Shown: in pieces, positions 3,860 through 35,914 of the stretch
Numbering within the stretch: the first letter of the stretch is position 1
Layout of the letters: every line of letters starts with the position of its first letter
Origin: Rhodobacterales bacterium
Lineage (GTDB): Bacteria > Pseudomonadota > Alphaproteobacteria > Rhodobacterales > Rhodobacteraceae
Direction of reading: 5' to 3'
Assembly (NCBI GenBank): GCA_017303485.1
Contig: JAFLCY010000002.1
Location: forward strand, 56,504 to 98,363
Length of the DNA stretch: 41,860 nucleotides
The notes under the pieces: generated by a model
Told to the model about the DNA's origin: nothing
Databases searched by the model: none
The model's input: the letters and a program-made list of their open reading frames with translations, nothing else
Program-made: the position numbers and the translations under genes

Positions 3860-4223
3860 GGGCTGTCCTCCCGGGCGGTTGGCCTGCTCGCCCTCGCGGA
3901 CGCCTCGGGGCCGCTGTAACGAAATTTCTGTCGAAAGAGGAAGAGCCGCGACGCCGGCTCAGGCTCACTTTTTCTAAGTCAGGTTAAGTTTTTGCCAACT
4001 TGCCGAAAGGGCCGTCTTTCGCAACCCTTCCTTACCCCACGCCAAGGACTTCGATGCGCCGAACATTCATCCCTCTCAAATCTCATCCAAGGTATCAGGC
4101 CTCTTGGCAGTGCCGAAATAGGGCGCGCCCCGATCGGGCGGAATAGCAAGACCGGCGCGTCCGGGACCGCAAGACCAGAAATCAAGCCAGATGGCACATC
4201 GCAGAACCGCAGGAGGGAATGAC
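3860..4223. promoter_or_regulatory. Divergent control region between nucleoside hydrolase and ABC importer genes
   Basis: About 330 bases lie between the divergent genes. It contains an inverted repeat AAGTT-TTTGCC-AACTT at 3986-4001, just after a TAAGT-N5-TAAGT direct repeat (3975-3989). A similarly spaced AAGTT-N6-AAGTT pair lies at 10823-10838 in front of the oxygenase gene. Since a LysR-type regulator is encoded in the cluster, these are candidate operators, but this is inference from spacing alone. A strong GGAGGG lies at 4212-4217, close to the start of the binding-protein gene. Confidence 0.4.
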
Positions 4224-5874
4224 ATAGCGATCAATTACAAGTTGCTCGACAGTTTCCGCCACGGCCGTTCCCAGCATGAAAACCACCTGATCGACGGTTT
4301 GGTGCGCGGCGCGATCAGCCGCCGCGACTTCCCGCGCTTTGGCACGGTGCTGGGACTTTCGGCGCCGGTTCTGGGCGGCATCGCTGGGGCTGCAGGCTAT
4401 GGCTTGTCGCCGACCTCGGCGCGGGCCAGCTCTCCGGGCGGGACCATCCGCTTTGGACTGATCGTCCCGGCGGGGGCGATCAATCCGGTGACCGTCGCCG
4501 ACGGAGGCGGTGTGACCGTGCTGTCGCAGTTCGGCGAGGCGTGTGTCCTTTCGGGGCCGGATCTGTCGGCGGCTCTGCTTCCGGCCGAAAGCTGGTCGCC
4601 AAATGCGGATGGCACAGTCTGGACCTTCAAGCTGCGCCAGAACGTCAAGTTCCATGACGGCAAGCCGATGACGGCCGACGACGTGGTGGCAACCTTCGAC
4701 CGTTTGGCGGATCCGGCAGTCGGCTCCAACGCGCTGTCGGGGAAGCTGTCGAAAGGCGGCACCCGCAAGGCTGATGATCACACCGTCGAGTTTCATCTGG
4801 ATGCCTCCAGCGGCAACTTCCCCTATGCCGTCTCAACCGACAACTACAATGCGGTGATCGTACCCGCCGAGATGCCGGAAGACTTTGAAGCGACGATGAT
4901 CGGCACCGGGCCCTTCAAGCTGGAGAAGTACACGCCGAAAGTCGGCGCCTCCTTCGTGCGCAATCCCGACTACTGGCGCACGCCGCCCCTGCCCGACCGG
5001 ATCGAGATCACGTTCTACGACGATTACCAGCCGCAGATTCTTGCGTTGCAGGCCGGAGAGATCGACATCGTCCAGCAAATCCCGGTCTTGCAGGCCGTCG
5101 GACTGCTCAGCAATCCCGGCGTCAACACCATCAGCACACAGTCTTCCGTGCATTGCCAGGTTCACATGCGCACCGACATGGAGCCCTTCAAGGACAAGCG
5201 GGTGCGGCAGGCCATCGCCCTCTGTCTGGACCGGCCCAAGCTGATCCCGGGGCTGCTGAAGGGCAAAGCCCAGATCGGCAATGACAGCCTCTTCATGCCG
5301 ATCTATCCGTCGACCGACACCAGCGTTGCGCAACGCCAGATCGACATTGCACAGGCCAAGCAGCTGATGGAAGCGGCGGGCATGGCCTCCGGCTTCAAGA
5401 CGACGCTGACCAACGAGAAATTCCTGGAAATCCAGGAATACGCGGTACTTATCCAGAACGCCGTCAAGGAGATCGGCGGTGACATCGCGCTGAACATCAT
5501 GGATCAGGGGGCCCGCTGCGGAGATGCGGTGCCCGGCAAGTCGCCGTGGCTCGACTCGGAAATGGGCATCACAGATTTCGGCCATCGCGGCGTGCCGAAC
5601 GTCTTCCTTCAGGCACCGCTGGCCAGCACCGGCACCTGGAATGCAGCACACTTTGCCAATCCGCAGTACGATACGCTGGTTCATGGCTACATCGCTGCGC
5701 TGGACCTGGAAACGCAGCGCACCACCGCCGGCGAGATCCAGACCCTGCTTCTGGACGAGACACCCGTGATCTTCTCATCTTTTCTACGACTTCCTGACCG
5801 TCACGAAACCGGGGGCTACCGGCCTGGTGCCGACGGCGATGGGTCGTCTGATGCTCGCCCAGGCAAGCCTGTAA
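4191..5874 (+). CDS. ABC transporter substrate-binding protein, family 5 (peptide type), frameshifted near its 3' end (copy 2)
   Basis: This periplasmic binding protein for a peptide-like ligand should be about 550 residues. An ATG exists at 4191, but the best ribosome-binding site (GGAGGG) is six bases before an in-frame ATA at 4224, giving a start like (M)AINYKLLD. A twin-arginine signal follows: SRRDFPRF, then a hydrophobic stretch ending in ARA, so Tat export is likely. Core segments such as DDVVATFDRLADP and KRVRQAIALCLDR are present. Around 5780-5783, in a run of four T, one extra base shifts the frame relative to copy 1. The original C-terminus (FYDFLTVTK through LMLAQASL, TAA at 5872) is then read out of frame and the shifted frame stays open to 6464. 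It may be a decaying gene or a sequence error. Confidence 0.85.
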
Positions 5875-5937
5875 CCCACCAGTTCTTCCGAGTCGCAGTC
5901 CCCTGCGGCCCGACCATCAGCCCGAGGGAGACACACG

Positions 5938-6891
5938 ATTTCCAGATACATCCTCAAACGCACACTCCTGGCTCTCTTGACCCTGTGGCTCTTGAGCGTG
6001 CTGATCTTTGCCGGAGGCCACCTTCTGCCGGGCAACGTCGGGCGCGCGATGCTGGGGCCCTTTGCCGATCAGGCCGCCGTCGATGTGCTCAATCACGAAA
6101 TGGGCACGGACCGGCCTTTGCTGGTGCAATATGCCGACTGGATCTCCGGGTTCCTGACCGGCGATCTCGGGATGTCCTATGCCTATCGCTCTCCGGTCGC
6201 GCCATTCCTGGGAACGGCGCTGTTGAACTCGGCCAAACTTGCGGCGGTCGCGTTCGTGCTGGTCGTGCCGCTGGGGATTTTCGGCGGTGTCATCGCGGCA
6301 CTCTACCGGGGTCGCCCGACGGACCGCATCCTGTCGGTGGTCGGGCTTTCGGCTACGGTAGTACCGGAGTTTGTCTCCGGCATCCTGCTGATCCTTATCT
6401 TCGGGGTCGGCCTGCGATGGTTCCCGATCTCGGCCAGCTGGCCAGACGGCGCGGGTCCGCTTGAGCAGCTTTACCACCTGATCCTGCCCGCCATCCCGCT
6501 TGTGCTGATCCTGTTCGGCTACATCGCCCGGATGGCCCGGGCCGGCATGATCGAGGCGCTGGATGCCGATTACACCCGCACGGCGGTGCTGAAGGGGCTG
6601 AGCTATCCCAAAGTGATCTGGCGCCATGTGCTGCGCAACGCCCTGTTGCCGACCATCAGCGTGATCGCGACCCAGACCGTCTACCTGATCGGCGGGCTCG
6701 TCGTGATTGAAATCCTGTTTCAGTACCAGGGCATCGGCAGCCTGATCTACACCGCCGCCAAGAAGAAGGACTTCCCCATGTTGCAGTCAAGCGTGATGGC
6801 CATCGGAGCGCTGTTTGCGCTGACCACCTTGCTGGCCGACCTGCTTTATGCCCGGCTCAATCCGCGCATCCGCTATGGGGGCCGAGAATGA
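5938..6891 (+). CDS. Peptide-type ABC transporter permease, DppB-like, candidate AUU start
   Basis: This is the inner-membrane permease of the binding-protein-dependent importer (BPD_transp_1 fold, about six membrane helices). Visible are the N-terminal helix (LLALLTLWLLSVLIFAGG), the long periplasmic loop, and the EAA-type ATPase-contact loop around EALDADYTRTAVLKGLSYPKV. The end is at the usual position. The family start (usually MxRYILKR) coincides with an ATT at 5938, seven bases after GAGGGAG. No ATG, GTG or TTG occurs in frame until TTG at 5977, which would remove part of the first helix. Copy 1 has the same ATT with its own Shine-Dalgarno sequence. The gene overlaps the second permease gene by four bases (ATGA). 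Confidence 0.9.
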   Translation: MSRYILKRTLLALLTLWLLSVLIFAGGHLLPGNVGRAMLGPFADQAAVDVLNHEMGTDRPLLVQYADWISGFLTGDLGMSYAYRSPVAPFLGTALLNSAKLAAVAFVLVVPLGIFGGVIAALYRGRPTDRILSVVGLSATVVPEFVSGILLILIFGVGLRWFPISASWPDGAGPLEQLYHLILPAIPLVLILFGYIARMARAGMIEALDADYTRTAVLKGLSYPKVIWRHVLRNALLPTISVIATQTVYLIGGLVVIEILFQYQGIGSLIYTAAKKKDFPMLQSSVMAIGALFALTTLLADLLYARLNPRIRYGGRE

Positions 6892-7769
6892 AGGCGGTGG
6901 CCGAGGCCCCGATGCTGCCCGAGCCGGAGCTGGTGGCAGAGCCGGGCTGGCGCGACGACCTGCGCCGGCTGTTCCGGTCGGCGTCCTTCGACATTGGCCT
7001 GATGATCGTGCTGTTCTGGGTCGGTTGTGCCCTGTTTGGCGCGCTCCTTGTGCCCTACGACCCATTCGCCGACGATCTGCTCAGCTCGCTGATGCCGCCC
7101 TCGGCAGAGCATTGGTTCGGCACCGATCAGCTAGGCCGCGACGTGTTCTCTCGCGTCATTGTCGGCGCCCGGGATATCCTGACGGTCGCCCCGCTGGCCA
7201 CCCTGATCAGCACCTTTCTGGGCACCGCGCTTGGCTTGACCATGGGCTATTTCGGCGGTCTCATTGATGAGGTTCTTGGTCGGATCGTGGATGCGGTACT
7301 TGCCCTGCCCACAGTGATCGTGGCGCTTCTGGCGCTGACGGCATTGGGCACCTCGACAATAACGGTCATGGTCGTGATCGCCTTAAGCTTTGCCCCGGTC
7401 ATCGCGCGCACGGTACGCAGCGCGGTTCTGGCCGAACGCGGGCTGGACTATGTCGCCGCCGCCGAACTGCGCCGCGAAAACAGCTTCTACATCCTCTTCG
7501 TCGAGATCCTGCCCAACGTGCTGCCCCCCATCCTGGTCGAAACCACGGTCCGCCTTGGCTATGCGATCTTCACCGTGGCTACGCTCAGCTTCATCGGCTT
7601 TGGCATCCAGCCGCCATCGCCGGACTGGGGGCTGTCGATCTCAAGCAACTACGGAATGATCGGGGGCGGCTTCTGGTGGACGGTGGTGTTCGACAGCGCG
7701 GCCATCGCTTCCCTGGTGATCGGGATCAACCTCGTCGCGGACGGGATCGAGAGTTTGCGCCATGACTGA
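6888..7769 (+). CDS. Peptide-type ABC transporter permease, DppC-like
   Basis: This 293-residue inner-membrane protein is the second permease subunit of the importer. The N-terminal cytoplasmic tail leads into a first helix (FDIGLMIVLFWVGCALFGALLV), then the DppC landmarks PYDPFA, EHWFGTDQLGRDVFSRV and the permease core with a GYFGGLIDE segment. The contact loop is around LDYVAAAELRRENSF. The C-terminal region SPDWGLSISSNYGMI is typical of the family. Its ATG overlaps the stop of the upstream permease and its stop overlaps the ATPase start, so the subunits are translationally coupled. No lesion is visible. Confidence 0.93.
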   Translation: MKAVAEAPMLPEPELVAEPGWRDDLRRLFRSASFDIGLMIVLFWVGCALFGALLVPYDPFADDLLSSLMPPSAEHWFGTDQLGRDVFSRVIVGARDILTVAPLATLISTFLGTALGLTMGYFGGLIDEVLGRIVDAVLALPTVIVALLALTALGTSTITVMVVIALSFAPVIARTVRSAVLAERGLDYVAAAELRRENSFYILFVEILPNVLPPILVETTVRLGYAIFTVATLSFIGFGIQPPSPDWGLSISSNYGMIGGGFWWTVVFDSAAIASLVIGINLVADGIESLRHD

Positions 7770-9759
7770 GGTCAAGCCTGCCTTGAAATTCGAAAGTCTC
7801 GGGGTCGAGTACCGCGTCAAGGGGAAGTCCCGGCAGGTTCTGGATGGCGTCTCCTTCGAGATCGGCCGGGGTGAAGCCTATGGACTGGTCGGCGAATCTG
7901 GCTGCGGAAAATCGACGGCGGCCTTTGCCGCCCTGCGCTACTTGCCGCGCAACGGTGGGGTGAACCGGGGCCGCATTATGGTCGATGGCCAGGATATCGG
8001 CAAACTGACCGGGCCGGACCTGCGCAAGTTGCGTCGGGTTTCCGTGGCCATGGTCTATCAGGATCCGGGCAAATCGCTGAACCCCTCGCTGACCATCGGA
8101 CGGCAGGTGCAGGAGGTTTTCGAACTGGCAGGCGTGCCGCGGGGTGAGTGGCGCTCCAAGGTAGAACAGATTCTCGCCAAGGTGCAGATCAGCGATCCGC
8201 GTCTTGTGATGGACCGCTATCCGCACCAGCTTTCAGGCGGCATGCAGCAGCGGGTTGCGATCGCGATGGCGATTGCCAGCAATCCGACGCTGCTGGTGCT
8301 GGACGAACCCACAACCGGATTGGACGCGACTGTCGAAGCCGAAGTGCTGGACCTGATCCAGCACCTGCGCCGCGAGCTGTCCACCGCGATCCTGTTCATC
8401 AGTCACAACCTCGCGGTCATCGCCCGCATGTGCGACCGGGTCGGCGTGCTTTACGCCGGGCGTCTGGTCGAGGAAGCGCGGACCGAGGAGATTTTCCGCA
8501 CCCCGCGCCATCCCTATACCGCCGGGCTGTTGTCCTGCCTGCCGCAGGCCGGGCGCAGCAAGGACAAGGCACCGCTCGCCACGATCCCCGGCTTTCTGCC
8601 GGTGCCGGGCGAAACCATCAAAGGCTGCGTTTTTGCCGCGCGTTGTGCGGTGGCCGAGGACCTCTGCCGCACCACCGAGCCGGAGTTTCGCAGCCGCGAC
8701 GGCCGGACCAGCAAGTGCCATTTCCCCGAGCGTGCCATGGCACTTCCCGCTGTGACGGACCACGCGGTCATGCCGCGCAGGCCGGAAGCAGCGGCACCGA
8801 TCCTGCAGATCGAGGGGCTGGAGAAGAGCTTCGGCACCGAAAGCCAGCGCCTGCGCGTCCTGCGCGACATCGGGATCGAACTCCGCAAGGGCGAGACTCT
8901 TGGCCTGGTCGGCGAATCCGGCAGCGGCAAGACAACGCTTGCCCGCTGCATCCTGGGCCTCCTGCAACCGGACACCGGCAGCAGCCTGCGCTTTGCCGGG
9001 AATGCGCTGGCCGGGCTCACCGCGAGACGAACCCGCGAACAGGTGAAATCCATCCAGATCGTGTTCCAGAACCCGGATTCCGCGCTGAACCGGTCACATT
9101 CCGTGCGGCGGATGCTGGAGCGGACCATCTCCCTCCTGGTCGGGCTGAAGGGCACCGCGCGCGAGGCCCGCGTGCAGGAACTGGCGCAGGGCGTGCGTCT
9201 GACCGGTCGCCACCTGTCCTCGATGCCGCGCCAGCTGTCCGGCGGACTGAAGCAGCGCGTGGCGATTGCCCGGGCCTTCGCCAGCGATCCACAGGTGCTG
9301 ATCTGCGACGAGCCCACCTCGGCGCTGGACGTGTCGGTGCAAGCCGCGACGCTGAACCTTCTGGCCGAGTTGCAGGCGAAAACCGAGGTCAGCTACATCC
9401 TGATTTCGCATGATCTGGGTGTCGTGCGGTATCTGTCAGACCGAATTGCCGTCATGTACCTGGGCCAGATTCTGGAAGTCGGACCGGCCGAAGCGGTGTT
9501 CTCCGGCCCGCATCACCCCTACACTTCCGCACTGATGTCATCTGTTCCCTCGATCGACGAGGGCGCAAAGGAGCGGGTCAAGCTTGTGGGGGCACTGCCG
9601 ACCGTGGCCCGTCGCCCGTCAGGCTGCGTTTTCAGTACAAGATGCCCGCAACGGATCCCCGGCCTGTGCGACACCAAGGCTCCGCCCAGGATCCAGTTGG
9701 AGGTGGGGCACGCCATCGATTGCCACCTTGCCCCCGACGCGTTGCCGAGCCGGACATGA
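7762..9759 (+). CDS. Fused double-ATPase subunit of the peptide-type ABC importer (DppD-DppF fusion)
   Basis: At 665 residues this cytoplasmic protein contains two complete nucleotide-binding domains in one chain, as in many dipeptide/glutathione importers of proteobacteria. Domain one has Walker A GESGCGKST near residue 44, the signature LSGGMQQRVAIAMA near 157 and Walker B VLDEPTTGLD. Domain two has Walker A GESGSGKTT near 384, the signature LSGGLKQRVAIARA near 491 and Walker B CDEPTSALD. Each is followed by the Cys-containing oligopeptide C-terminal motif (GCVFAARC and GCVFSTRC). It overlaps the permease stop by eight bases and closes the transport operon. All catalytic motifs look intact, so the importer could function if supplied with a good binding protein. 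Confidence 0.95.
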   Translation: MTEVKPALKFESLGVEYRVKGKSRQVLDGVSFEIGRGEAYGLVGESGCGKSTAAFAALRYLPRNGGVNRGRIMVDGQDIGKLTGPDLRKLRRVSVAMVYQDPGKSLNPSLTIGRQVQEVFELAGVPRGEWRSKVEQILAKVQISDPRLVMDRYPHQLSGGMQQRVAIAMAIASNPTLLVLDEPTTGLDATVEAEVLDLIQHLRRELSTAILFISHNLAVIARMCDRVGVLYAGRLVEEARTEEIFRTPRHPYTAGLLSCLPQAGRSKDKAPLATIPGFLPVPGETIKGCVFAARCAVAEDLCRTTEPEFRSRDGRTSKCHFPERAMALPAVTDHAVMPRRPEAAAPILQIEGLEKSFGTESQRLRVLRDIGIELRKGETLGLVGESGSGKTTLARCILGLLQPDTGSSLRFAGNALAGLTARRTREQVKSIQIVFQNPDSALNRSHSVRRMLERTISLLVGLKGTAREARVQELAQGVRLTGRHLSSMPRQLSGGLKQRVAIARAFASDPQVLICDEPTSALDVSVQAATLNLLAELQAKTEVSYILISHDLGVVRYLSDRIAVMYLGQILEVGPAEAVFSGPHHPYTSALMSSVPSIDEGAKERVKLVGALPTVARRPSGCVFSTRCPQRIPGLCDTKAPPRIQLEVGHAIDCHLAPDALPSRT

Positions 9760-9842
9760 CGGGCAGTCGGGGCTCCGCAGCGGTATTCCGCGGTGACTCC
9801 AATACTGCTAGGACGAGGAAGACGAACAAAGGCGCAGCGCCC

Positions 9843-10763
9843 ATGCCCCTGACCCTGCCACCGCTCAATGCCCTGCGCGCCTTCGAGGCGGCAGCACGGA
9901 CAGGAAGTTATGTTGCGGCGGCGGAAGAGCTGGGCGTCTCTGCCGCCGCAATCAGCCAGCAGATCCGCAAGCTGGAGGATTATCTGGGCAAGCAGATGTT
10001 CACGCGGATGAACAACCGTGTGGTCCTGACCGATGCCGGCAATGCGATCCGCGAAGGCACCGCTGCTGCGTTGCAGATGATCTCGGACTCGACCGAGCAG
10101 CTGGTCTCGGACCGCTCGAGGTCGCGGCTTATGATCAGCACCATCGACTCGGTGGCCGAAAAGTGGCTGGTCACCCGGCTGGCCAGCTATTGCCGGGAGC
10201 ATCCCGAGTTCCGCTTTGAACTGCGGGTAGAGCCTGATCCCGCCGATTTCGCACGGCACAACATCGACCTCAGGATCGGCTACGGTCCCAGCCAGTATCC
10301 CGAACACAGCATCGTGTTGATTGAGCAGGATGTGGTCCTGCCCCTGTGCAGCCCTGCCTATCTGGAACGCAATCCGGCGGCGGCGAAAGATGGTATGGCG
10401 GCAGTGCCGGAAGATGATCTCCTGCACACCAGCTGGGGCGAAAGCTTCGGATCGCACCCGACATGGCATAGCTGGTTCGTCAAGGCGAAACTGAAGCCGC
10501 CCTTGGTTACCAGGGGGTTTCAGGTCGGCAGGTCCAGCCTGGCGCTGGATCTGGCACTTGGGGGTCTGGGTGTCGCGCTCGGGCAAAGGATGATGGCCAA
10601 GGACGATATCTCGGCGGGCAGACTGGTGGCCTTGTCCGACATCAGTATCGCACTGGGCTATCCCTATTGCCTGGCCTATCCGCGGGCGAAAGGCCGAAAA
10701 CGGCACCTTGTGGCGCTTGCAACCTGGCTGACGGACCCCGCTGCGACCGGTGACGGAAGCTAG
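9843..10763 (+). CDS. LysR-family transcriptional regulator, GcvA-like
   Basis: This 306-residue protein has an N-terminal winged helix-turn-helix (LNALRAFEAAARTGSYVAAA through SQQIRKLEDYLGKQMFTR) typical of the GcvA/AmpR branch of LysR regulators. A C-terminal effector-binding domain of periplasmic-binding type follows. LysR proteins usually act as tetramers that respond to a small-molecule co-inducer, often a substrate of the pathway they control. The gene lies between the importer and the enzyme genes, all on the plus strand, which makes it the likely regulator of the cluster. Candidate sites with AAGTT half-sites stand upstream of both the importer and the oxygenase. The start is the ATG 83 bases after the ATPase stop; the longer frame upstream of it overlaps the ATPase gene. 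Confidence 0.92.
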   Translation: MPLTLPPLNALRAFEAAARTGSYVAAAEELGVSAAAISQQIRKLEDYLGKQMFTRMNNRVVLTDAGNAIREGTAAALQMISDSTEQLVSDRSRSRLMISTIDSVAEKWLVTRLASYCREHPEFRFELRVEPDPADFARHNIDLRIGYGPSQYPEHSIVLIEQDVVLPLCSPAYLERNPAAAKDGMAAVPEDDLLHTSWGESFGSHPTWHSWFVKAKLKPPLVTRGFQVGRSSLALDLALGGLGVALGQRMMAKDDISAGRLVALSDISIALGYPYCLAYPRAKGRKRHLVALATWLTDPAATGDGS

Positions 10764-10913: not shown

Positions 10914-11708
10914 ATGAAACACCTTCTTGACCTTGACACCTATCCGCTCGACCGCCCGGAAAGCCCGGAATACGCGGCACTCGTTGCCTCCTGCAAAGCC
11001 AGGCTTGCCGCCGACGGCATGTTCGACTTGCCGGGCTTCGTGCGGGCCGAGGTGACCAGGGCCGCTGCCGAGGCCGTCAAACCAGCCATGGCGACCGCAG
11101 CGTTCCGCCATGCCCGCCAGCACAACATCTACTTCCGCGATACGGTCGAGGGCTTGACCGATGATCACCCGGCCATGGCCAAGGTTGAAACGGTCAACCA
11201 CACACTATGCGCCGACCAGCTGGGCGGCAATCCGGTGATCGATATCTACGAGTGGCCGCCCTTTGCCGATTTTCTGGCCGCCACCATGGGCAAGCCCGTC
11301 CTCTACCGGATGGACGATCCGATGGCGCGTGTGAACGTGCAGGCCAGCCGCGCTGGCGAGGCGCTGAACTGGCACTTCGATCGGTCTGAGTTCACCACCA
11401 CGATCCTGCTGCAAGCGCCAGAGGAAGGGGGAGAGCTGGAGTTCCGCTCCAACCTGCGCAGCGCTGATGAGCCCAATTTCAATGGTGTCGCGGCCGTCCT
11501 GCGCGGAGAAGATCCCGACGTGCAGAAGGTCAGGCTCGTGCCGGGCGCGCTGAATGTTTTCCGCGGCGTCAATACCTTGCACCGCGTCGTTCAGGTCAAG
11601 GGACCGACAGAGCGGATTGTCGCAATCTTCGCTTTCTTTGACCGCCCAGGTGTTATCATGTCCGCGAAAGAACAGGTCGGCTTCTACGGACGCTCTGTAG
11701 CAGCATGA
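10914..11708 (+). CDS. Fe(II)/2-oxoglutarate-dependent oxygenase, HalD/BesD/ArpA-like, with hydroxylase-type HxD motif
   Basis: This is a 264-residue cytosolic protein of the cupin-fold oxygenase group that includes the amino-acid halogenases BesD/HalD. The iron triad can be read as His154-Phe-Asp156 in LNWHFDRSEF and the distal His223 in NTLHRVVQV, with Arg234 (PTERI) placed to bind 2-oxoglutarate. Family halogenases replace the triad aspartate with glycine to make room for chloride. Here the aspartate is kept, so hydroxylation or desaturation is the better prediction, probably on an amino acid or a derivative. The start is ATG after a GGAGG ribosome-binding site. It is followed by a hairpin terminator and then the lyase-like gene. 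A truncated copy of both oxygenase ends lies at about 1310-1495. Confidence 0.85.
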   Translation: MKHLLDLDTYPLDRPESPEYAALVASCKARLAADGMFDLPGFVRAEVTRAAAEAVKPAMATAAFRHARQHNIYFRDTVEGLTDDHPAMAKVETVNHTLCADQLGGNPVIDIYEWPPFADFLAATMGKPVLYRMDDPMARVNVQASRAGEALNWHFDRSEFTTTILLQAPEEGGELEFRSNLRSADEPNFNGVAAVLRGEDPDVQKVRLVPGALNVFRGVNTLHRVVQVKGPTERIVAIFAFFDRPGVIMSAKEQVGFYGRSVAA

Positions 11709-11803: not shown

Positions 11804-13282
11804 ATGACCACTACCGCCAAAACAGACAACCCGCAGCCTCTCGTCCTTGATGGCACAGGTCTGACCTGTGCAACACTGGTCGAGGCCGCATCGCTGCTTC
11901 GTCCGGTGGTCCTTGCCGAAGGGGCCGATCTGCGGATCCGCAAGGGTCGCGAAGTGGTGGAGGAGATCGTCAACAGCGGCGTCAAGGGCTATGGGATCAC
12001 CACGGGCGTTGGCTCGCAGAAGGAATTCGCGGTGCCGCCTGCAGGTATGCGGGACTACAACCGGCGCCTGGCCCGCGCGCATTCGTCCCACATGGGCGGC
12101 GCGGTCCTGCCGGAGCAGCGGGTCCGGGCGGCGCTGATCATTCTGGCCAATGAGTTCTCGCTGGGGCTGTCGGGCGTCTCGGCGCCCCTGGTGCAGTTGA
12201 TTGTCAGGCAGATCAACAAGGCCGAGATGCCGCAGGTGTCGTCCTATGGCACGGTCGGGGCGGCGGACCTGATCCCGATGGCCCAGATTGCCGACTGGTT
12301 GCAAAGCCAACCCGAGGCGCTGGCCAGCGGCATTCCGGGGCCCAAGGAAACCCTGTCGCTGATCAACACCAACGCGGTGACGCTGGCAACCGGAGCAGAG
12401 GCCCTGATCGAGGCGCAGGCCGTGCTGCGGTTGGCCAACCTGTCCTTGGCGCTGTCGCTGGAGGCGTTTCGCGGCAACCTCAACGCGATCAGCACCCAGG
12501 TCAATCAGGCGCACCGGCGCAGCGGTCAGGCCGTGGTCAGCGCCGAGATCCGGGACCTGCTGAAAAACAGCCAGCTTTGGCAGGAAGGTGCTGCCCGCCG
12601 CATTCAGGATCCGCTCAGCTTCCGCTGCGGCTCACAGATCCACGGCGCACTGCAGGAACAACTGGTGCGTGCCATTGCGGTCTGGGACGAGGAACTGAAC
12701 TCGGTCACCGACAATCCGATCGTGGACCGCGACGACCGCTCGGTGCGCTCGCATGGCAACATGGATTCGACGCGGATGACGCTGGCCATCGACGGGCTGC
12801 GTCAGGCCTTTGCCAAAGTGGCCGATATTGCCGGCGAACGGCTGCACAAACAGCAATGGACCGAGTTCTCGGGCCTGCCGACCGGTTTTTCCGATGCGAA
12901 CAGCCCGCTTGGCGGCGTGCAATTCCTGAACCTCGGCCACCTGGCGGCGTCGTTGATCACCTCGATCAAGATCTGGGCCGCGCCGTCCTTGCTGCTGTCG
13001 GTCGGCCAGATCGCTGACGGCGTGGAGGACACCGCCAGCCATGCCCTGCACTCGGTCGCCGATTTCGCCCGCATGCTGGAAGCGTTGCGCCTAATCTTCA
13101 CCATCGAGATCATCGTCTCGACCTGGGCCATTCAGAAAAGGCAGTTGCCCACGGATAGTCTTGGCGAGGGCGTCAGGACCTATGTCGCGACGATCACACC
13201 GGAACTGCCGATTGGTCGCGAAGGGCTGGAGGTCTTTTCCATTGAGCCCATCGCCGGACTGCTTCGTAGGATGAACGGCTAA
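11804..13282 (+). CDS. Histidine/aromatic ammonia-lyase-like protein lacking the MIO-forming Ala-Ser-Gly triad
   Basis: This 492-residue protein is collinear with bacterial histidine ammonia-lyase. The N-terminal YGITTGVGS holds the family loop tyrosine (Tyr63), and LINTNA, VTDNP and QDPLSFRCGSQ align with HAL segments. Two active-site features are missing. The cofactor motif GxVGASGDL is GTVGAADL (150-156), one residue shorter and without the serine that cyclises to MIO. The catalytic tyrosine of the QDPYSxR segment is Leu271. Arg274 and a glutamate near 408 remain. Classic MIO-dependent deamination is therefore unlikely, and an isomerase, another lyase chemistry or a binding role is possible. 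I chose ATG 11804 (GAAGG before it, after the terminator); in-frame ATGs at 11789 and 11705 also exist. Confidence 0.85.
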   Translation: MTTTAKTDNPQPLVLDGTGLTCATLVEAASLLRPVVLAEGADLRIRKGREVVEEIVNSGVKGYGITTGVGSQKEFAVPPAGMRDYNRRLARAHSSHMGGAVLPEQRVRAALIILANEFSLGLSGVSAPLVQLIVRQINKAEMPQVSSYGTVGAADLIPMAQIADWLQSQPEALASGIPGPKETLSLINTNAVTLATGAEALIEAQAVLRLANLSLALSLEAFRGNLNAISTQVNQAHRRSGQAVVSAEIRDLLKNSQLWQEGAARRIQDPLSFRCGSQIHGALQEQLVRAIAVWDEELNSVTDNPIVDRDDRSVRSHGNMDSTRMTLAIDGLRQAFAKVADIAGERLHKQQWTEFSGLPTGFSDANSPLGGVQFLNLGHLAASLITSIKIWAAPSLLLSVGQIADGVEDTASHALHSVADFARMLEALRLIFTIEIIVSTWAIQKRQLPTDSLGEGVRTYVATITPELPIGREGLEVFSIEPIAGLLRRMNG

Positions 13283-22516: not shown

Positions 22517-23030
22517 TTAACGAATTGCAATTTGAGTGCCTCCATGCGTCGACCTCGAATCACTCGCAATCGGATCGACGGCTAGGCGAGACGCGGCCCG
22601 GAAATGCGGGTTCGAACAGCCAGCGGAGACGTCTCCGAAAAATCAAAACCGACTTAACCCCCGGAAACACCGGATTCTTTCCCGGTGAAACCGAAAAACC
22701 ATGCGATATCAATAAGTTGTGGCGGAGGAGCCAGTCTGGAGCTATCCCGTCTCTGCAAAATTCCCTGCAAACAGGGAAAAGAACAGCGAATTTCCGTAGT
22801 TCTCGGACGTCTAACGCCGTTTCCAGTGTGAATCTCCGGGCAGATTCAACGCCTTACTCGAAGTTTCCCTACTGACCGGAACAGGGAACATTTTCGAACC
22901 GAACAAGGTAGTTTTCCGTTCCAGCAGGGAACTTAGTCTCGGTGGCGTGATCCTGCCGATGCAGACCTTCGGTGACATTTGAGCGGCCCGGCAGGCGGCG
23001 GAATCTGCTATCGTCACCGGGACTCATAGC
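22517..23030. repeat. Gene-free repeat block upstream of the serine recombinase
   Basis: No gene is supported. Near 22762-22780 lies TTCCCTGCAAACAGGGAA, an inverted repeat with TTCCCTG arms. Further partial copies (TTTCCCTA, AACAGGGAAC, AGCAGGGAAC) follow to about 22932. GATATCAATA at 22705 followed by TGGCGGAGGAG at 22720 recalls the reverse complement of a tRNA 3' end; a GGGTTCGAAC, like a T-loop, sits at about 22608. Together these suggest old recombination sites or attachment-site debris in front of the recombinase. Confidence 0.45.
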
Positions 23031-23109
23031 ATGGCGAACGATGCTATCCGGGCCTCTGTGGCGCCGGCGTTGGATGATTTTGTGCTGGCGTATCTGGAGG
23101 CCGAACCCG

Positions 23110-24675
23110 GTGGAGGAAGCCGAGGTCTCAGACAGAGCAGGCGAAGGCCCGTCGCTTGTCCGGGCGGCCGAGTACGTGCGCATGTCCACCGATCATCAGC
23201 GCTACTCGACTGAAAATCAGGCGGCGGCGATTCAGGCCTATGCTGCACGGCGCGGCATGGAGATCGTCCGCACTTACGCCGATGAAGGAAAGAGCGGGCT
23301 GCGGATCGAAGGCCGGGACGCCCTGAAACAGCTGATTGAAACGGTCACGTCTGGACGGCCAGATTTCGATGTCATTCTTGTCTACGACATCAGCCGATGG
23401 GGCCGCTTCCAGGACGCAGACGAAAGCGCTTACTACGAGTACATCTGCCGGCGCGCCGGGATCGACGTCCACTATTGCGCCGAACAGTTTGAAAACGACG
23501 GCAGCCCCATGGCCACGATGTTCAAGGGGTTCAAGCGCGCCATGGCTGGCGAATACAGCCGAGAGCTGTCCAGCAAGGTCTTCGCCGGGCAATGCCGCCT
23601 GATCGAGAAGGGCTTTCGCCAGGGCGGCCCAGCCGGGTTTGGTTTGCGGCGCCTGCTCATCGATCAGCACGGAGTTCCTAAGGCAACGCTAACCCAAGGT
23701 GAACACAAGAGCCTGCAAACCGATCGCGTCGTACTTGTACCGGGTCCCGAGGAAGAAGTTGCCATCGTTCGCGAGGTCTACCGCGCCTTTGTTTCAGACG
23801 GACGAAACGAAGCGCAAATCGCCGATTGCCTGAATGAACGGGGTATCCCGACGGATCGCGGCCGGCCCTGGACGAGAGGTGCCGTCCATCAGTTGCTGAT
23901 CAACGAAAAGTACATCGGAACCAATGTTTGGAATCGGGTTTCCTTCAAGCTCAAGAAGAAGCGCATACGCAACGACCCCGACACCTGGATCCGAGCGCCG
24001 AACAGCTTTCCGGCAATCGTCGATCTGACGCTCTATGAAGCCGCGAACAAGATCATCGCAGAGCGCTCGGCCCACATGTCCGACGCCGAGATGCTCGCTG
24101 CATTGCAAGCGCTGCTGGAACATCAGGGTGCGTTGTCGGGTCTTATTATCGACGAGGCCGACGAAACCCCATCGAGCAGCGCTTACAGCCATCGGTTCGG
24201 CAGCCTGCTCCGGGCCTATCGTCTCGTCGGTTTCCGGCCGCGGCGCGACTATCGTTACATCGAGATCAACCGCGAACTCCGTGGGCTCCATCCCGAAGTC
24301 GTCGATGGAGTGCTGAGTGGGATCTCCGCTGCGGGCGGTGCCGCCACACGAGATGCGACGACCGATCTCGTGACCGTCAATGGCGAGTTTACCCTGTCCC
24401 TCGTCATTGTCCGCTGCACCCGCACTCCGGCCGGATCGCTGCGCTGGCGTGTGCGGTTCGATACGGGGCTCGTACCGGACATCTCCGTTGTCATCCGGAT
24501 GGACGAACTCAACCGGAAGCCTTTCGACTACTTCCTCTTCCCCCTCCTTGACGTTGGCACCGGCAAGCTCCGCTTGGCCGAAGAAAATGGGCTTGCCCTC
24601 GACAGCTACCGTTTTGACAGCCTCGACCCGCTCTATGCACTTACCGAACGCGCATCTCTCAGGGAGGTAGCATGA
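23110..24675 (+). CDS. Large serine recombinase (resolvase plus recombinase domains)
   Basis: At 521 residues from the proposed start, this protein has the N-terminal resolvase domain with the catalytic serine in AAEYVRMSTDHQ. It continues with YADEGKSGLRIEGRDALKQL, the DVILVYDISRWGR strand, and a recombinase domain around LNERGIPTDRGRPWTRGAVH and LINEKYIGTNVWNRV. Such enzymes integrate or excise mobile DNA. I chose GTG 23110 because GGAGG lies nine bases before it; an ATG at 23179 would lose the catalytic strand, and the longer frame back to 22972 has no better start. It overlaps the next gene by four bases. A separate frame from ATG 23031 (MANDAIRASVAPALDDF) overlaps the start and might encode a short leader. 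Confidence 0.92.
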   Translation: MEEAEVSDRAGEGPSLVRAAEYVRMSTDHQRYSTENQAAAIQAYAARRGMEIVRTYADEGKSGLRIEGRDALKQLIETVTSGRPDFDVILVYDISRWGRFQDADESAYYEYICRRAGIDVHYCAEQFENDGSPMATMFKGFKRAMAGEYSRELSSKVFAGQCRLIEKGFRQGGPAGFGLRRLLIDQHGVPKATLTQGEHKSLQTDRVVLVPGPEEEVAIVREVYRAFVSDGRNEAQIADCLNERGIPTDRGRPWTRGAVHQLLINEKYIGTNVWNRVSFKLKKKRIRNDPDTWIRAPNSFPAIVDLTLYEAANKIIAERSAHMSDAEMLAALQALLEHQGALSGLIIDEADETPSSSAYSHRFGSLLRAYRLVGFRPRRDYRYIEINRELRGLHPEVVDGVLSGISAAGGAATRDATTDLVTVNGEFTLSLVIVRCTRTPAGSLRWRVRFDTGLVPDISVVIRMDELNRKPFDYFLFPLLDVGTGKLRLAEENGLALDSYRFDSLDPLYALTERASLREVA

Positions 24676-25568
24676 CTAATCCACCCCGCCCCCAGCACCT
24701 TCAGATGATACGGATTGACCGGGTCGAGGTCCTGAACCCCCGTGCCCGCAACAAACGGCTGCACAAAGAAATCGTTGATAACATCGATGCTGTCGGGCTC
24801 AAGCGACCGGTGACTGTGCGCAGACACGCCGACGAGCCCGACCGCTACGACTTGATTTGCGGCGAAGGACGTCTGGAAGCCTTTAGACTGCTCGGTCAGG
24901 AAAAGATCCCGGCAGTGGTCGTTGAAGCGAAGGAAGCGGACTGCATGGTGATGAGCTTGGTGGAGAACATCGCACGCCGCCAGCATCGCCCGATCGACTT
25001 GATGCTCGAGATCGGCAACCTGCATCAGCGCGGCTACACCGACGTCGCCATTGCCGAGAAGATCGGTTGCACGCAGAGCTGGGTTAACATGATCGTCACG
25101 CTGCTAGAGCGCGGCGAGGAACGGCTAGTGGCCGCGGTCGAAACCGGCCTCATCCCTGTCAGCCTCGCTGTCGATATCGCCCGCGCGAAAGGCGACACCG
25201 TACAGGCGCTTCTGATGGACGCCTATGAGGCCGGCCAGATCAAGGGCAAGAAGCTTGGAAAGATCCGCCGCCTTCTGGACCAGCGGCTTTCACAGAAGAA
25301 GACGCTGCCGGACAGTGGCCTTGGCCGGAGGGGCGGCAGCCGCAAACTCACCCAAGCCGATCTGATGAAGCTCTACCAGCGTGAGGCCGACAAGCAACGC
25401 ATCCTGGTCCGGAAATCCGACGTGACCCAGGCTCGGCTGATCTTCATCGTCGAAGCACTGCGGGATCTGTTGTCGCAGGGGGAGTTCCCGGACCTTCTTC
25501 GCGATGAAGGCCTCATCGATATGCCCAGAGCTCTTGCAGACCGCCTGATGCCGGAGCCAGTCCGATGA
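24672..25568 (+). CDS. ParB/RepB-like protein, first of a coupled pair
   Basis: This 298-residue protein has a ParB N-terminal domain: a strand IDRVEVLNPRARNKRLHKEI, the nucleotide-box-like segment LICGEGRLEAFRLLGQ and the helix MSLVENIARRQHRPID. A helix-turn-helix follows (AIAEKIGCTQSWVNMIVTLL), then a basic linker and a RepB-type C-terminal domain. ParB proteins bind DNA and act as CTP-dependent clamps; those paired with a recombinase lack a ParA partner and have no established partition role. Translation is coupled to the recombinase upstream and the second ParB-like gene downstream by ATGA overlaps, pointing to a three-part machine rather than plasmid partition. Confidence 0.9.
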   Translation: MTNPPRPQHLQMIRIDRVEVLNPRARNKRLHKEIVDNIDAVGLKRPVTVRRHADEPDRYDLICGEGRLEAFRLLGQEKIPAVVVEAKEADCMVMSLVENIARRQHRPIDLMLEIGNLHQRGYTDVAIAEKIGCTQSWVNMIVTLLERGEERLVAAVETGLIPVSLAVDIARAKGDTVQALLMDAYEAGQIKGKKLGKIRRLLDQRLSQKKTLPDSGLGRRGGSRKLTQADLMKLYQREADKQRILVRKSDVTQARLIFIVEALRDLLSQGEFPDLLRDEGLIDMPRALADRLMPEPVR

Positions 25569-26488
25569 GCGCTGATCGCCGTGGAACGAATGCCGTAAAA
25601 CTTGCCTTCGAACCAGACACCGTCGACCTTGCAATCGAACAGCTTGTTCCGCTGAAGGTGCTGCGCCCGGGTGCCAAGGAGAGCAAGAAGTACGCGCAAA
25701 TCCGAGGCTCGGTTAAGGCGATCGGCTTGGTCGAGGCACCGGTCGTGGCACGCAACCCGGACGATGCTGCAAGGTTCTTCCTGCTCGATGGCCACATGCG
25801 GATTGAGGCCTTGAAGGACCTCGGCATCCAGCGTGTGGAATGTCTCGTGTCCACCGATGACGAAACCTACACCTACAACAAACGGGTCAACCGGCTGGCG
25901 GCGGTCCAGGAGCACAGCATGATCAAGCGTGCGATCGCACGCGGTGTGCCGGAAGCAGCGATTGCTGAGGCTCTGGGTCTCAACATAGAGACGATCTTTC
26001 GGAGAACGCGGCTCCTCAACGGGATCTGCCCCGAAGCTGTGGAGGTACTGAAGGACACCTCCGCACCAATGGCAGTGTTCGACATCTTGCGACGGATGGG
26101 GCCGATCCGGCAGGTGGAAGCCGCCGAACTCATGGTAGGTCAGCACAACTACTCGGTCCAATTTGCAAAAGCACTTCTGGCAGCCACGCCTGACACAGCA
26201 CTCGCTGTTCCGCGCCGAAAGCAACCGAAGAGAGATGGTCAAGTCTCCACTGAGCAGATGGCGAAGATGGAGCGCGAGCTGGCGAGCCTGCAGACCCAGG
26301 TGAAATCCTTCGAGGAAACCTACGGTGTCGATACGCTGCACCTGACGGTGGCGCGCGGCTACATCCGAAAGCTTCTCGGCAATCCGAAAGTGGTATCCTG
26401 GCTGGGGCGGCACCGCGGCGAATATCTCGGTGAATTCCGGTCGCTCACGGAATCCGAGGGTGAAGGCGCCGATCGAACGATCGGCTGA
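25565..26488 (+). CDS. ParB/RepB-like protein, second of a coupled pair
   Basis: This 307-residue protein is related in plan to its upstream neighbour but diverged. A ParB-like N-terminal domain (VPLKVLRPGAKESKKYAQI, FLLDGHMRIEALKDLGI) replaces the usual GERR box with DGHMR. A helix-turn-helix follows (AIAEALGLNIETIFRRTRLL). A C-terminal domain (MAKMERELASLQTQVKSFEE, then WLGRHRGEYLGEF) resembles plasmid-partitioning RepB C-termini and may form a coiled-coil dimer. The altered box suggests that nucleotide binding may differ from its partner. It is the last gene of the recombinase cassette. Confidence 0.88.
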   Translation: MSADRRGTNAVKLAFEPDTVDLAIEQLVPLKVLRPGAKESKKYAQIRGSVKAIGLVEAPVVARNPDDAARFFLLDGHMRIEALKDLGIQRVECLVSTDDETYTYNKRVNRLAAVQEHSMIKRAIARGVPEAAIAEALGLNIETIFRRTRLLNGICPEAVEVLKDTSAPMAVFDILRRMGPIRQVEAAELMVGQHNYSVQFAKALLAATPDTALAVPRRKQPKRDGQVSTEQMAKMERELASLQTQVKSFEETYGVDTLHLTVARGYIRKLLGNPKVVSWLGRHRGEYLGEFRSLTESEGEGADRTIG

Positions 26489-26800: not shown

Positions 26801-28120
26801 TTAGGCAAGCAAGGCCTTCATTGCGTCAGCCTCGTCGACCAAGATCAGGCTCCGCAGTCGACCAAGCATGTCCTTACCGTTCGCCACATCAATGCTTGCC
26901 GTTTCGAGAATAGTGTCGTGGCCAGTGATACGGTTCCGAGCGAGAACGAGCTCTCGGCTACCCAGTCCCGAATGATGAGGATAGAGGAGCGTTAGACGTG
27001 GCGCGCCATATAGCTGAGCATAGGCCATCATCTGATAGACGTCGCCCTGTGAAACCCCTTGCTTCGGATCATCGATCCGGGAAGATATCCGCTTCCATTT
27101 GGTGTCGATCACATGGACCACGGCACCCCCACGTCGGATCAGAATATCTGGTTTAGTCTGGAAAAGACCGCGCTCCGTCCTTTCAGCCGACAAGCAGAAG
27201 AGACGCCCGCCCTGCAGAGAGACGGTCATGCCCGTCCCAGCCAACGCGCGCGAAATCAGGCGTCCAACATACTCCTCAAACAACGTGTTCATCTCGAAGA
27301 GCAGCGCGGTGCCACGGCCAAAACCGTCTGTTGTTGTCTGATACCGGCCCTCCAAGAAAAGCCGTGCCATACTGAGAAGCTCCTGCCAGCGGCGATTGGT
27401 TCTGTCGATTACCACGTCATCCCATCGCAATGCTGCGGGCTCGATGTCCGCGATGTCTGCGTAGACGAAAGCCAGTTCGCGAAGGCGCTGCTGATTTGCC
27501 GTACTCCGTGAGGTACGAGACAGAGACCTAACTGCAGCCTTCATGATCCGATTTAACGCCATGTCCTCCGAAAGGAGATTAAATCGGCATGCGAGGCGAG
27601 ACGCATTCACAGCATTGCGTGTAAATTGCCGAACGACGTCCAACGTGCCCCGCAGGGCGGGTAGATCGTCCTCGTGCTCGATGTAGCGGCGTGGCATTCC
27701 TTTCCGGACAGCTTCGGTAAGCTTGTCGCAAAAGATGCGGATCAAGATTTCGAGCAGGGTCTCCCGCTGCCAGGCCAGGTCAGTTACCGACCCGAGATCC
27801 AGTTTCAGATTCAGTGCAACGGCAAGCATGTGAATTAGTCGCTTTCGGATTGCCGCATTCTGGTTCTCGACTGAGTCGTCGGGCGCGACCTCGATCTTGG
27901 GTAAGATCTCCAGGCTACAATCCTCTGCGGCGAGTATACCGACGACCCCCCGCGCCCGCAGGGCATGCCGGCCATGCTCTAGCACGCCGTTCCCACCTCT
28001 TCCTGAAAACGGCGAGCGTTGCGCCAAGGCCGCTAGCCGATCCGCCAAATGTGCTGGGATCTGGTCCTTGCTATCTCCATAGGTGAGCTTGTCCCATTCA
28101 CGGACAGTGAACGGTTTCAT
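26801..28120 (-). CDS. mcrC: McrC, nuclease subunit of a McrBC-type modification-dependent restriction system
   Basis: This 439-residue protein has the McrC plan: an N-terminal region that contacts the McrB ring, a middle helical section (FCDKLTEAVRKGMPRRYIEHE), and a PD-(D/E)XK nuclease core. The core shows KPDILI (Asp325), HVIDTKWKR (Asp339 and Lys341) and a later QMMAYAQLY, the expected metal and helix residues. In McrBC, the McrB AAA+ ring recognises modified DNA and translocates while McrC cuts. Its ATG overlaps the McrB stop by four bases, giving coupled synthesis in proper ratio. It is the last gene of the three-gene operon. Confidence 0.92.
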   Translation of the reverse strand: MKPFTVREWDKLTYGDSKDQIPAHLADRLAALAQRSPFSGRGGNGVLEHGRHALRARGVVGILAAEDCSLEILPKIEVAPDDSVENQNAAIRKRLIHMLAVALNLKLDLGSVTDLAWQRETLLEILIRIFCDKLTEAVRKGMPRRYIEHEDDLPALRGTLDVVRQFTRNAVNASRLACRFNLLSEDMALNRIMKAAVRSLSRTSRSTANQQRLRELAFVYADIADIEPAALRWDDVVIDRTNRRWQELLSMARLFLEGRYQTTTDGFGRGTALLFEMNTLFEEYVGRLISRALAGTGMTVSLQGGRLFCLSAERTERGLFQTKPDILIRRGGAVVHVIDTKWKRISSRIDDPKQGVSQGDVYQMMAYAQLYGAPRLTLLYPHHSGLGSRELVLARNRITGHDTILETASIDVANGKDMLGRLRSLILVDEADAMKALLA

Positions 28121-31053: not shown

Positions 31054-34000
31054 TCTACACTCCTCAGAGAACACAGCGTGTTCACCAGCCGCATTTGCTC
31101 GACCGTATCGCACTTAGCTTCGCGCAGACGTGGCGCTCCAAAAACCAGTGCCAAGCCCTTTGCCCGCGACACCGCCACATTGATGCGGTTGAGCGAGAAC
31201 AGGAAGTCCATGCCGCGTGAAGTTTCCTCGGCAGATGAGGCCGTCATCGACACGAGACAGACTGGTGCTTCCTGCCCTTGGAATTTGTCCACCGTGCCCA
31301 CCCGGATCGCCGCAGGCAAAGCCTCGCGGAGCGCGTTAACTTGAGCGTTGTAGGGCGCGACGACGATGATGTCGCTCTCAACCAAAGGCCTGGTTTCACC
31401 ATCGTTGTCGCTCCAATTCCCAGACAGAAGGCTCTCGCACGCCGCGCGAATGGCCTCGACCTCTTCCAATGCGACCTGCGCGTTACCTTCATGTGCCACC
31501 GGCACCCAATAGGCGCCGGCTTCCGGAAAATTCGTGCCGGTCACCGCCTGGCGGGCAGTATCGGGGTGACTATCGAGACGACCCTCGTAGACCTGATCCG
31601 AAATGAAGCGATTGACCTCCGGATGCATGCGCCGTGTGATGCCGAGGAAGATCCCGCGATCCGGCGGAATGGTGGCGTGATTACCCAACATCCACTCCAG
31701 GCAGGACAGGTTTGCAGGCGCCGGATGTGCGCCCTGGATCACCTGCGGCAACTGGCGAGGGTCGCCCACCAGCACGATGTTGCGCGCGGCCCGGCCCATG
31801 GCGGCCATGTTGGCCAGCCCCACCTGTCCGGCCTCGTCCACGAACAGCCAGTCGAAGGCTTGAACGTTCTCGTCGCGGGCGAAGAAGAAGGCCGTCCCGC
31901 CCACCACCTGACTACCTGACGCGGCTTCCGCGTTGTCATTGGTGCGCTGGATCGGGCAGTCCTGAGGATAGCCATCCTCATCTCCAGACACCTTGTGGAT
32001 GAGATCCAAGTCAATCGGAAGATCTTCGTCTTCCAGCGCCTTCAGACATCCCATCAAGACGTTGCGAATGGCTTCATGGGAATTGGAGGCCACGCCCACC
32101 CGTTTTCCTGCTCGGACAAGCGACAGAATTGCACGCGCTGTGACATGGGTCTTACCGGTCCCAGGAGGGCCCTGAATGGGCATCACCGTTTCATCCATTC
32201 GCCCGACTGCCGCGATTGTGTCTGCGACCACGTCAACCTCCGGCAGAATGGGGCCTGCGCCCGTCAGCCTCGGAGCCGACCGCGAGAGAAGATTATCGAC
32301 GGCGCGGTAGCTCCGAGGACCACATTGATCCTCGATCACGTCGCGCAGGGCGGACGCGATCACATCGGCATTGATTGGCTTGTCGGGATGAAGTGTCAGA
32401 CGGTCCGCCAAGAGATCCGCCCGTGCCGCACCAATCTTCAGTGTAATTGTTCGATCCGTCCGATCGAACGCCTCGATGCTCACCGATGTGAAGCCCTCGG
32501 GCGTCGGAATGCTGGCCTTCTTGCCGCCGCGCAATTTGCTTTCCTGCGCGGGAAAGCGGTAGCTTCGTTGCACTGAACGCTTGATCGGCTCAGCGGGTCC
32601 CGTCGCGACGAGGCCCCCCAGGGCGTCGAGATCATCGATCAAGTCCTCATCATCCTTGCCCAGACTGTCAAAGATCGCCCACCAGGCCGGTTTGGCCTCG
32701 CGTTTATGAAACATCCCAAGGTCGAACAGCATCGACTGCCTATCCTCTGGGAGGCGTGACGCGGCAAGCTTTGAGCGTAGGGCCTCGGCCTCGACATTCT
32801 CCTCGGTTTCCTTTTCATCAGCTGGCTCGATGAACTGCGGCCAAGGACCTTCGGGGCGGATTTCAACCAACCAGTCACGGAGGCGTTCCGTCGAGATACA
32901 GTCGATGCGATTGTAGTCCTCTATCTCGTCGAGGATCTGCTGCTCGCCAGTTTCTCGCCAATGCTCATAGGCCACAACTGAACCGCCCGCCGTCTTGACC
33001 TCGCCCTTGCGTTCGAGCCCATAGAAGGCTTCCAGAGACTTAATCGAATAGTTGGGCTCGGAGCAGATCAGTCCTCCGCGTACAACGGCATAGAGATCCA
33101 CAAAGCGTCGCTCCCGAAGCAGCCGATCGAGGAACGCCTCACCAATCCCGTATTTCGCGGTCAGACGACGCAGGGCTGTGATTTCGTAAGGAGCGTAGTG
33201 ATAGATCCGCGCCTGCGGGAACTTTGCGAGCCGGTCCCGGAAGAAGTCGAGCAGTTCCGACAGGGACCGCGCCTCTGCCTTGTGGTCATGCGCCCAAAAG
33301 GCACGAAAGCCTCCATCGAACCAGACGCCATGCAGATACTCGAGCCCGGCCTCGTAATGGGGATCGCCCTCGATGTCGTAAAAGAGGTCACCTGGCTGCG
33401 GCTCCGGCAGCAGATCAAATCCCTTCCCGAATTGGGGCGGACGCAGCTCAAAGTGGGGTGCCCCTACCTTCCGAGCATTCTGAAGGCGCGCCTGGGTGCG
33501 CAGTTTTTCCAGCGTCTCATTCGCCATGCCGCGAATTGGGCCTGTATGCGTCGCCAGCCCCGCCATCGTGGAGATCCCTGCGCCTTCCAGCTTCTTGACC
33601 TGCCCCTTGGCGATGTTCGCCACGTTGAAAAGACTGTCCTCGGCATCCCAGACACTGCTGCAGTGATCCGCCCACCGACAGAGAGCGCAATCGGAACAAG
33701 GTATAGGCCGCGTCGTCGCGGGTTCAGCCACAAAGGCCTCAAGTCTAGCGCGAGCGGCGCGCGCGTAATGGGCATAGTCCGCCAGCCGCAGGGTCGCCCT
33801 CTCGCCTGTCCCCAACTCGACATGGGCAAATTCGGGCGCCACGCCTTGTATCTCGGTCAGAAGGTCGGAGTAGAGCACCAGTTGCAGCACGTGCTTCGGG
33901 TGAGGCTGGCGCTTGAGCTTGGTATCGGCCACCTCATAGCTGAACGGACCCAGAGCCGAGGGGCGCTCGACCCGTTCCAGGAAGTCTGACCATCCGCCCC

Positions 34001-34319: not shown

Positions 34320-34495
34320 GGGTTCCTACAATTAAATATGAGCGCAACCCGAAGCGGAATCGTCCCCGAGTTGCAGCTTGCTCAATAACCCGAATGGGTG
34401 TCAACAACTGTCATGCACACCACTACGCTGCAACGGAATGCGACTAAGCATTACCCGGATTTCTTCGTGATGCTAGGTGCTTAGAGATCACGCCT
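34320..34495 (-). promoter_or_regulatory. Promoter region of the nuclease-helicase/McrBC operon
   Basis: This AT-richer spacer lies upstream of the minus-strand operon. It includes TACAATTAAATATG near 34327-34340, the most promoter-like patch, but no clear -35/-10 pair could be fixed. No coding frame is supported. Confidence 0.3.
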
Positions 34496-34890: not shown

Positions 34891-34908
34891 GGCTCGCTCG
34901 GTGCGCTT

Positions 34909-35889: not shown

Positions 35890-35914
35890 AAGCGATTTTC
35901 AAAGGCGATACTTG

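Follow-up and report, generated by a model that had tools for sequence, protein, structure and literature searches.

A predicted MIO-free lyase of the histidine ammonia-lyase fold, encoded beside an Fe(II)/2-oxoglutarate oxygenase gene in Rhodobacterales

The window (i.e., the whole 41,860-nucleotide stretch of Rhodobacterales DNA analysed here) encodes a protein of the histidine ammonia-lyase (HAL) fold (hereafter, the lyase) that, judging from its sequence and that of its relatives, almost certainly lacks the MIO cofactor and is predicted, with nearly the same assurance, to be functional. An MIO-free enzyme of this fold is already known in kind, namely ergothionase, and the lyase represents a separate, unstudied branch. 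As the best explanation, to which we lean with modest confidence, the lyase would be a beta-eliminating enzyme that acts on a betaine amino acid and sets free a methylated amine. The coordinates of the lyase, its key residues, and its operon neighbours are given in Table 1.

Table 1. Coordinates of the lyase, its key positions, and neighbouring genes in the window
Feature	Coordinates	Strand	Remarks
Opp/Dpp-type ABC importer (SBP_bac_5, permeases, fused ATPases)	4191..9759	+	syntenic in Cypionkella L006
LysR/GcvA-like regulator	9642..10763	+	ORF; likely true start about 9843
Fe(II)/2-oxoglutarate oxygenase, HalD-like	10914..11708	+	52.8 bits; HFD (HxD) metal motif
HAL-fold lyase, MIO triad absent	11804..13282	+	492 aa open frame
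Tyr63	11990..11992	+	equals HAL Tyr53 and ergothionase Tyr53; Tyr in 50/51 aligned rows, 1 gap
Former MIO loop GTVGAADL	12248..12271	+	residues 149–156; alignment
Leu271	12614..12616	+	Tyr in 7 GASGDL rows; Leu in 42/44 others
His379	12938..12940	+	Lys in ergothionase and 25 further rows
Glu408	13025..13027	+	equals HAL Glu414 and ergothionase Glu411

As the preliminary description of this locus had stated, the lyase resembles HAL along its full length. In a profile search, the Pfam Lyase_aromatic model (PF00221) covers residues 20–462 at 297 bits (cut-off 27.3), and the NCBIfam hutH model scores the protein at 224.5 bits, which is weak against its cut-off of 539. The start codon is uncertain, with an alternative in-frame ATG at 11705 that overlaps the stop codon of the oxygenase gene. 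The aligned loop of a HutH from the same genome (L001) reads GSVGASGDL, and against it the lyase has lost one residue and has no Ser, just as had been described, so that the Ala-Ser-Gly triad of MIO ammonia-lyases is absent from its loop. The motif QDPLSFR stands at the site of QDPYxxR in HutH rows, which bears out the earlier reading that the tyrosine of MIO enzymes (HAL Tyr280) is here a leucine, Leu271. Also as described, Tyr63, Arg274 (HAL Arg283), and the late glutamate, Glu408, are kept in the alignment with HAL, where we take the HAL numbers Tyr53, Tyr280, Arg283, and Glu414 to correspond to the aligned positions. No Ala-Ser-Gly serves elsewhere as the cofactor site: the only such triplet of the lyase (residues 174–176) is ruled out as a displaced triad because it is unconserved, occurring there in 0 of the 13 clade relatives compared, and a triad moved upstream by four residues is likewise ruled out for the window lyase, which reads SYG at that point.

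Using a 51-row alignment, we found GASGDL in seven rows and its absence in 44, one of which is the ergothionase of Treponema. The loop is shortened by one residue in 41 of these 44 rows. In the other three (L075–L077, from a haloarchaeon and rhizobia; GSTD---DLG, GSAG---YLT), which branch near the GASGDL HALs, the deletion is larger; the gene of L075 adjoins glycine-betaine ABC transporter genes. Among the rows that lack GASGDL, Gln268, Asp269, Ser272, and Arg274 are retained in 44 of 44, and Tyr63 and Glu408 in 43 (one gap each); the two rows that do not have Leu at the Tyr280 position have Ile and Phe, and at the His379 position 26 rows have Lys and 12 have His. A phylogeny was built with IQ-TREE from columns other than the loop and Tyr280, after 11 genus HutH rows had been dropped (L002, L013–L022), L003–L005 and L011 left out, and near-duplicate or short rows merged or skipped. 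It resolved a window clade (14 rows; support 100/100), a separate ergothionase clade (six rows; 100/100), a third group (21 rows; 100/97), and the GASGDL HALs (seven rows; 95/90). Because this tree is unrooted and has no PAL or TAL rows, it is compatible with a single loss of MIO as well as with repeated losses.

Within the window clade, four relatives of 47–50% identity (L026, L027, L038, and L039) have the loop D(A/T)SGSxGAS-DL, in which an ASG or TSG is displaced upstream by four residues relative to the normal triad, and loci L130–L132 read the same, so that the shifted (A/T)SG is conserved across this sister branch. It may be fortuitous or may mark a shifted cofactor site; hence, as far as the sequences tell, MIO may form at the shifted position in the sister lyases, whereas for the window protein the sequence excludes MIO altogether. 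Three sister lyases (L048, L052, and L130; 46–48% identity) differ from the window lyase by this loop and by their place in hut operons, whereas L048 and L052 match it at Tyr63, His93, Leu271, Met320, His379, Lys389, Trp391, and Glu408.

The pairing with an Fe/2OG oxygenase gene that had been noticed in the window holds across the core relatives: the oxygenase gene lies just upstream of the lyase gene in seven of the eight core genomes that have at least 1.9 kb of upstream sequence, and its HxD motif is one that we take to mark the hydroxylase type. The two genes directly adjoin in the window, L006, and L046, and a gene of the M24 family lies between them in L009, L010, L044, and L064; in L007, 1.9 kb of sequence upstream of the lyase showed no oxygenase gene, and the upstream sequence of L008 ends at the contig end. 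A DddP-like M24 gene belongs to the run in L009, L010, L044, L064, and L046, its C-terminal part is present at the contig end in L008, and 56 residues alone are present in L007. This partner is absent from the window and L006 loci (the best M24 protein of the window genome, 42% identical, is encoded on another contig). The M24 partners of the relatives are about 40% identical to DddP-type proteins, and all five metal ligands of the M24 family are kept in the alignment, as are DddP Tyr366 and Asp377; they differ from the DMSP lyase DddP in scoring 388–403 bits against the NCBIfam DddP cut-off of 600, and in their betaine-like operon context. The oxygenase occurs far more often than the lyase, with matches in 71 of 248 family genomes (E <= 1e-20), and an M24 gene lies within about 1 kb of it in six of the 13 further oxygenase loci opened, some of which are cut by contig ends (L113, L114, L117, L118, L120, and L121). 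The structure model of the oxygenase has a pLDDT of 38. A second, independent lyase/M24 neighbourhood was seen at L055 (5400–9523), where a distant lyase of the third group lies beside a 48% identical DddP-like M24 gene.

The genomic context of these oxygenase and M24 genes points to betaine catabolism. MttB-family genes and the oxygenase gene are no more than about 3.5 kb apart in L121 and L122 (in the latter, the oxygenase relative is found among MttB and Rieske genes), and a Mesorhizobium locus (L108) has MttB, Ldh-family, oxygenase, and Rieske genes in a row. In Rhizobium (L109 and L110), an M24 relative (66% identity) occurs with Rieske and reductase genes, in a run that adjoins hydroxyproline epimerase/racemase and glycine-betaine/proline transporter genes. 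A sister lyase gene of 37% identity (L049) is directly preceded by an MttB-family gene, with a DMGDH-like gene also upstream, and is followed by a GbcA-like Rieske oxygenase gene.

Other relatives are linked to histidine degradation. The sister lyase genes of L048, L052, and L130 end hut operons, directly after a canonical urocanase gene, hutU; L130 is a 100% identical copy of L052 in a second genome, in which the hutU stop and the lyase start share a base. A member of the ergothionase clade (L069) is likewise placed at the end of a hut operon. The HutU proteins of L048, L052, and L069 score 944–969 bits with the hutU model and 664–691 bits with that of thiourocanate hydratase (cut-off 930), whereas urocanase-like genes about 1.5 kb upstream of two other lyases of the ergothionase clade, L068 and L074, pass the NCBIfam thiourocanate hydratase cut-off of 930 (1038 and 1041 bits), in keeping with the substrate expected for that branch. 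In L114, about 0.2 kb separates an oxygenase-M24 pair from a hut operon that converges on it. L048 and L052 yielded neither an oxygenase nor an M24 gene, and hut genes were found neither in the window and the core-locus flanks examined (some of them short) nor at L047, L053, L131, and L132 on other branches of the clade. The window genome has two canonical urocanase genes, located elsewhere than in the window, and two canonical HutH genes with GASGDL (on C2, and on C53 at a contig edge); given its 6.22% estimated contamination, the two hutH and two hutU copies may reflect a strain mixture.

Taken together, these neighbourhoods argue for the methylated-amine reading, the parts of which carry different weight. 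By analogy, elimination of the ergothionase type is likely, and a methylated amine is a rather probable leaving group, which, being already good (trimethylammonium or another methylated ammonium), would make an electrophilic cofactor unneeded. Tyr63 would remove the beta-proton and the amine would depart, with His379 in the role of the ergothionase Lys. The substrate might, less certainly, be an amino acid that is N-methylated and bears an imidazole-like ring; hercynine (histidine betaine), for example, would yield urocanate and trimethylamine. Such a histidine-type ring is a tentative proposal, being an extrapolation in view of the absence of hut genes from the window, the core flanks examined, L047, L053, L131, and L132, and our estimate of it was lowered by the shifted triad of the sister lyases. 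In this scheme, the betaine would also be the compound that the Fe/2OG oxygenase (and, in most relatives, the DddP-like M24 enzyme as well) prepares or breaks down further. Several observations count against this explanation. The hut-linked sisters, as well as L026 and L039, are imperfect proxies, since they have a shifted ASG or TSG at which MIO is possible; His stands in place of Lys, and Met320 and Trp391 differ from the ergothionase residues; and the M24 gene is missing in the window and L006, the lyase copy in G040 is split, and L007 shows no oxygenase gene within 1.9 kb upstream and only 56 residues of M24. The preliminary description had suggested a hydroxylated or desaturated amino-acid substrate, an idea that gained no direct support; relatives and neighbours point instead to N-methylated (betaine) amino acids.

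A related possibility, which we regard as improbable though better placed than the other alternatives, is that the MIO-free lyase expels a leaving group other than a methylated amine (sulfonium, hydroxyl, or other) that the oxygenase first installs or exposes. This would suit an operon partner that is an HxD-type Fe/2OG oxygenase and the likeness of the M24 proteins of relatives to the DMSP lyase DddP, an enzyme with a sulfonium substrate. In addition, an NtaA/DmoA-type monooxygenase gene is located some 5 kb downstream of a distant MIO-less relative in Paracoccus aminophilus (L070). However, several independent N-methyl neighbourhoods (MttB, Rieske, betaine transport) speak against it, and the sole characterised relative, to our knowledge, releases trimethylamine.

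Ergothionase is the known enzyme that the lyase most resembles in predicted structure. According to a passage of a 2026 paper (PMC13405746), this HAL-fold enzyme lacks MIO. The Treponema denticola enzyme (6s7j/6s7q) has in common with the lyase the triad-less HAL fold, the one-residue loop deletion, QDPLSFR, and the tyrosine and glutamate positions (Tyr53 and Glu411, equivalent to Tyr63 and Glu408), and thus the claim that the lyase is novel in kind does not stand, because ergothionase shows both the loop deletion and the leucine. An AlphaFold2 model of the lyase from an 11-row alignment has a pLDDT of 83.6 and a pTM of 0.87, with Glu408 poorly placed because residues 401–408 fall below a pLDDT of 50. 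Foldseek ranked ergothionase chains (6s7j) first to third (best E 4.6e-24; TM 0.87/0.86), followed by HAL (1gkj; E 7.0e-23; TM 0.86/0.83), a small margin that supports likeness of the predicted fold to ergothionase, not identity with it. HutH also shares the fold, full-length alignment, and the equivalents of Tyr53, Arg283, and Glu414, but the lyase is 27–30% identical to HutH-type relatives and lacks the Ala-Ser-Gly triad and Tyr280.

That the lyase is a true ergothioneine lyase that has drifted in sequence seems quite unlikely, even though fold, loop deletion, and QDPLSFR are all common to both. The two proteins are 24–25% identical, fall into separate clades with support of 100/100 each, and have different operon partners. 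Ergothionase Lys383 (chain count), Phe326, and Leu395 correspond to His379, Met320, and Trp391 of the lyase, and we take Lys383 to be catalytically important and the mechanistic roles of the ergothionase Tyr and Lys to be as assumed above. No thiourocanate hydratase or other urocanase-type gene was found in the window or the core flanks examined, and the hut-linked sisters are accompanied by canonical urocanase. The tree, the Lys-to-His change, and the lack of a urocanase-type neighbour thereby weaken ergothioneine as the obvious substrate, and the lyase probably works like ergothionase but is not one.

The lyase is a member of a real, conserved family that is under purifying selection. Close relatives (67–86% identity) occur in eight other genomes of the same order, namely Cypionkella psychrotolerans (L006), two Zongyanglinia (L009 and L010), a Roseobacter MAG (L008), MAG NORP86 (L007), G117, G507, and G040, and homologues sharing the shortened loop were recovered: GTVGAA-DL is found in eight of the nine core rows, including the window, and the ninth, G040, in which the gene is split into two pieces, reads GTLSAS-DL. 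Within the genus (32 genomes), the lyase is confined to the window's own genome; the other matches are 27–30% identical, and the 11 that were read (L012–L022) are HutH with GASGDL. Matches are rare across wider samples, which overlap and each include the window's genome and distant relatives: 13 of 394 genomes for the family (E <= 1e-40), six of 390 for the order and seven of 385 for the class (both E <= 1e-45), and six of 249 for the phylum (E <= 1e-38). No relative of the lyase was found in the viral collection. Pairwise dN/dS values were 0.10, 0.12, 0.14, and 0.09 for the lyase (four pairs; range 0.087–0.142; dS >1 in two), and 0.092 and 0.093 for the oxygenase (two pairs). With the loop common to eight of nine core rows and dN/dS of about 0.1, the lyase is neither an error nor a dead gene, and the view that it is a repurposed fold was upheld.

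A non-catalytic or scaffolding pseudoenzyme is very improbable: the loss of MIO and Tyr280 and the one disrupted copy among core genomes would agree with it, but Tyr63, Arg274, and Glu408 are retained, dN/dS is low, and active ergothionase has undergone identical losses. There is a negligible chance that the lyase is an ordinary MIO ammonia-lyase whose loop was altered by a sequencing or assembly error: although the draft genome has 257 contigs and 6.22% estimated contamination, the deletion is found in 14 of 14 clade rows from separate genomes.

Other features of the window and its genome were also recorded. At the left end of the window lies a second, broken copy of the importer binding-protein gene (1–1293; 76% nucleotide identity to 5006–6296), and next to it a stretch encoding 38 residues from the C-terminus of the oxygenase (1379–1492), and together these are a remnant of a partial cluster duplication. 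Downstream, a resolvase/recombinase gene and two RepB/ParB-like genes (22972–26488) have a homologous trio (58/44/43%) near a 50% identical lyase at L047 (3885–7050), hinting at mobile-element linkage. The region 26801–41616 is likely a defence island, with McrC-like, AAA McrB-like, RNase H/helicase fusion (MkoA-like), and WYL regulator genes, and a 1723-aa helicase that matches Druantia DruE models (270 bits). The window genome also has six MttB-family genes. On contig C200 of the same genome, a further PF00221 match (L004/L005) scored 94 and 59 bits, and a simple motif scan found in it neither a GxxGDL loop nor QDPxxxR.

These results suggest that HAL-fold enzymes that lack the usual MIO triad form several deep branches, and not ergothionase alone. 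Open-licence PMC literature gave no report that we recognised on the lyase subfamily or on a hercynine lyase, an absence that carries little weight. In its fullest form, the proposal is that the oxygenase, the DddP-like M24 enzyme, and the MIO-free lyase constitute an undescribed route of histidine-type betaine catabolism, and that the lyase and its hut-operon sisters are a new enzyme class that would use a Tyr/His pair in place of MIO (or, in the sisters, possibly a shifted-triad cofactor) to free a methylated amine from hercynine or a closely related derivative; we consider this complete version speculative and on balance doubtful. Some of the triad-less branches are annotated as histidine ammonia-lyase (e.g., L070 and L071), and, if our interpretation is correct, such 'hutH' annotations would be wrong, and a missing triad combined with QDPLSxR would provide a simple rule for spotting them. 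The lyases of L052 and L048 and the window protein are candidates for amine release from histidine betaine, and may represent a bacterial source of trimethylamine.
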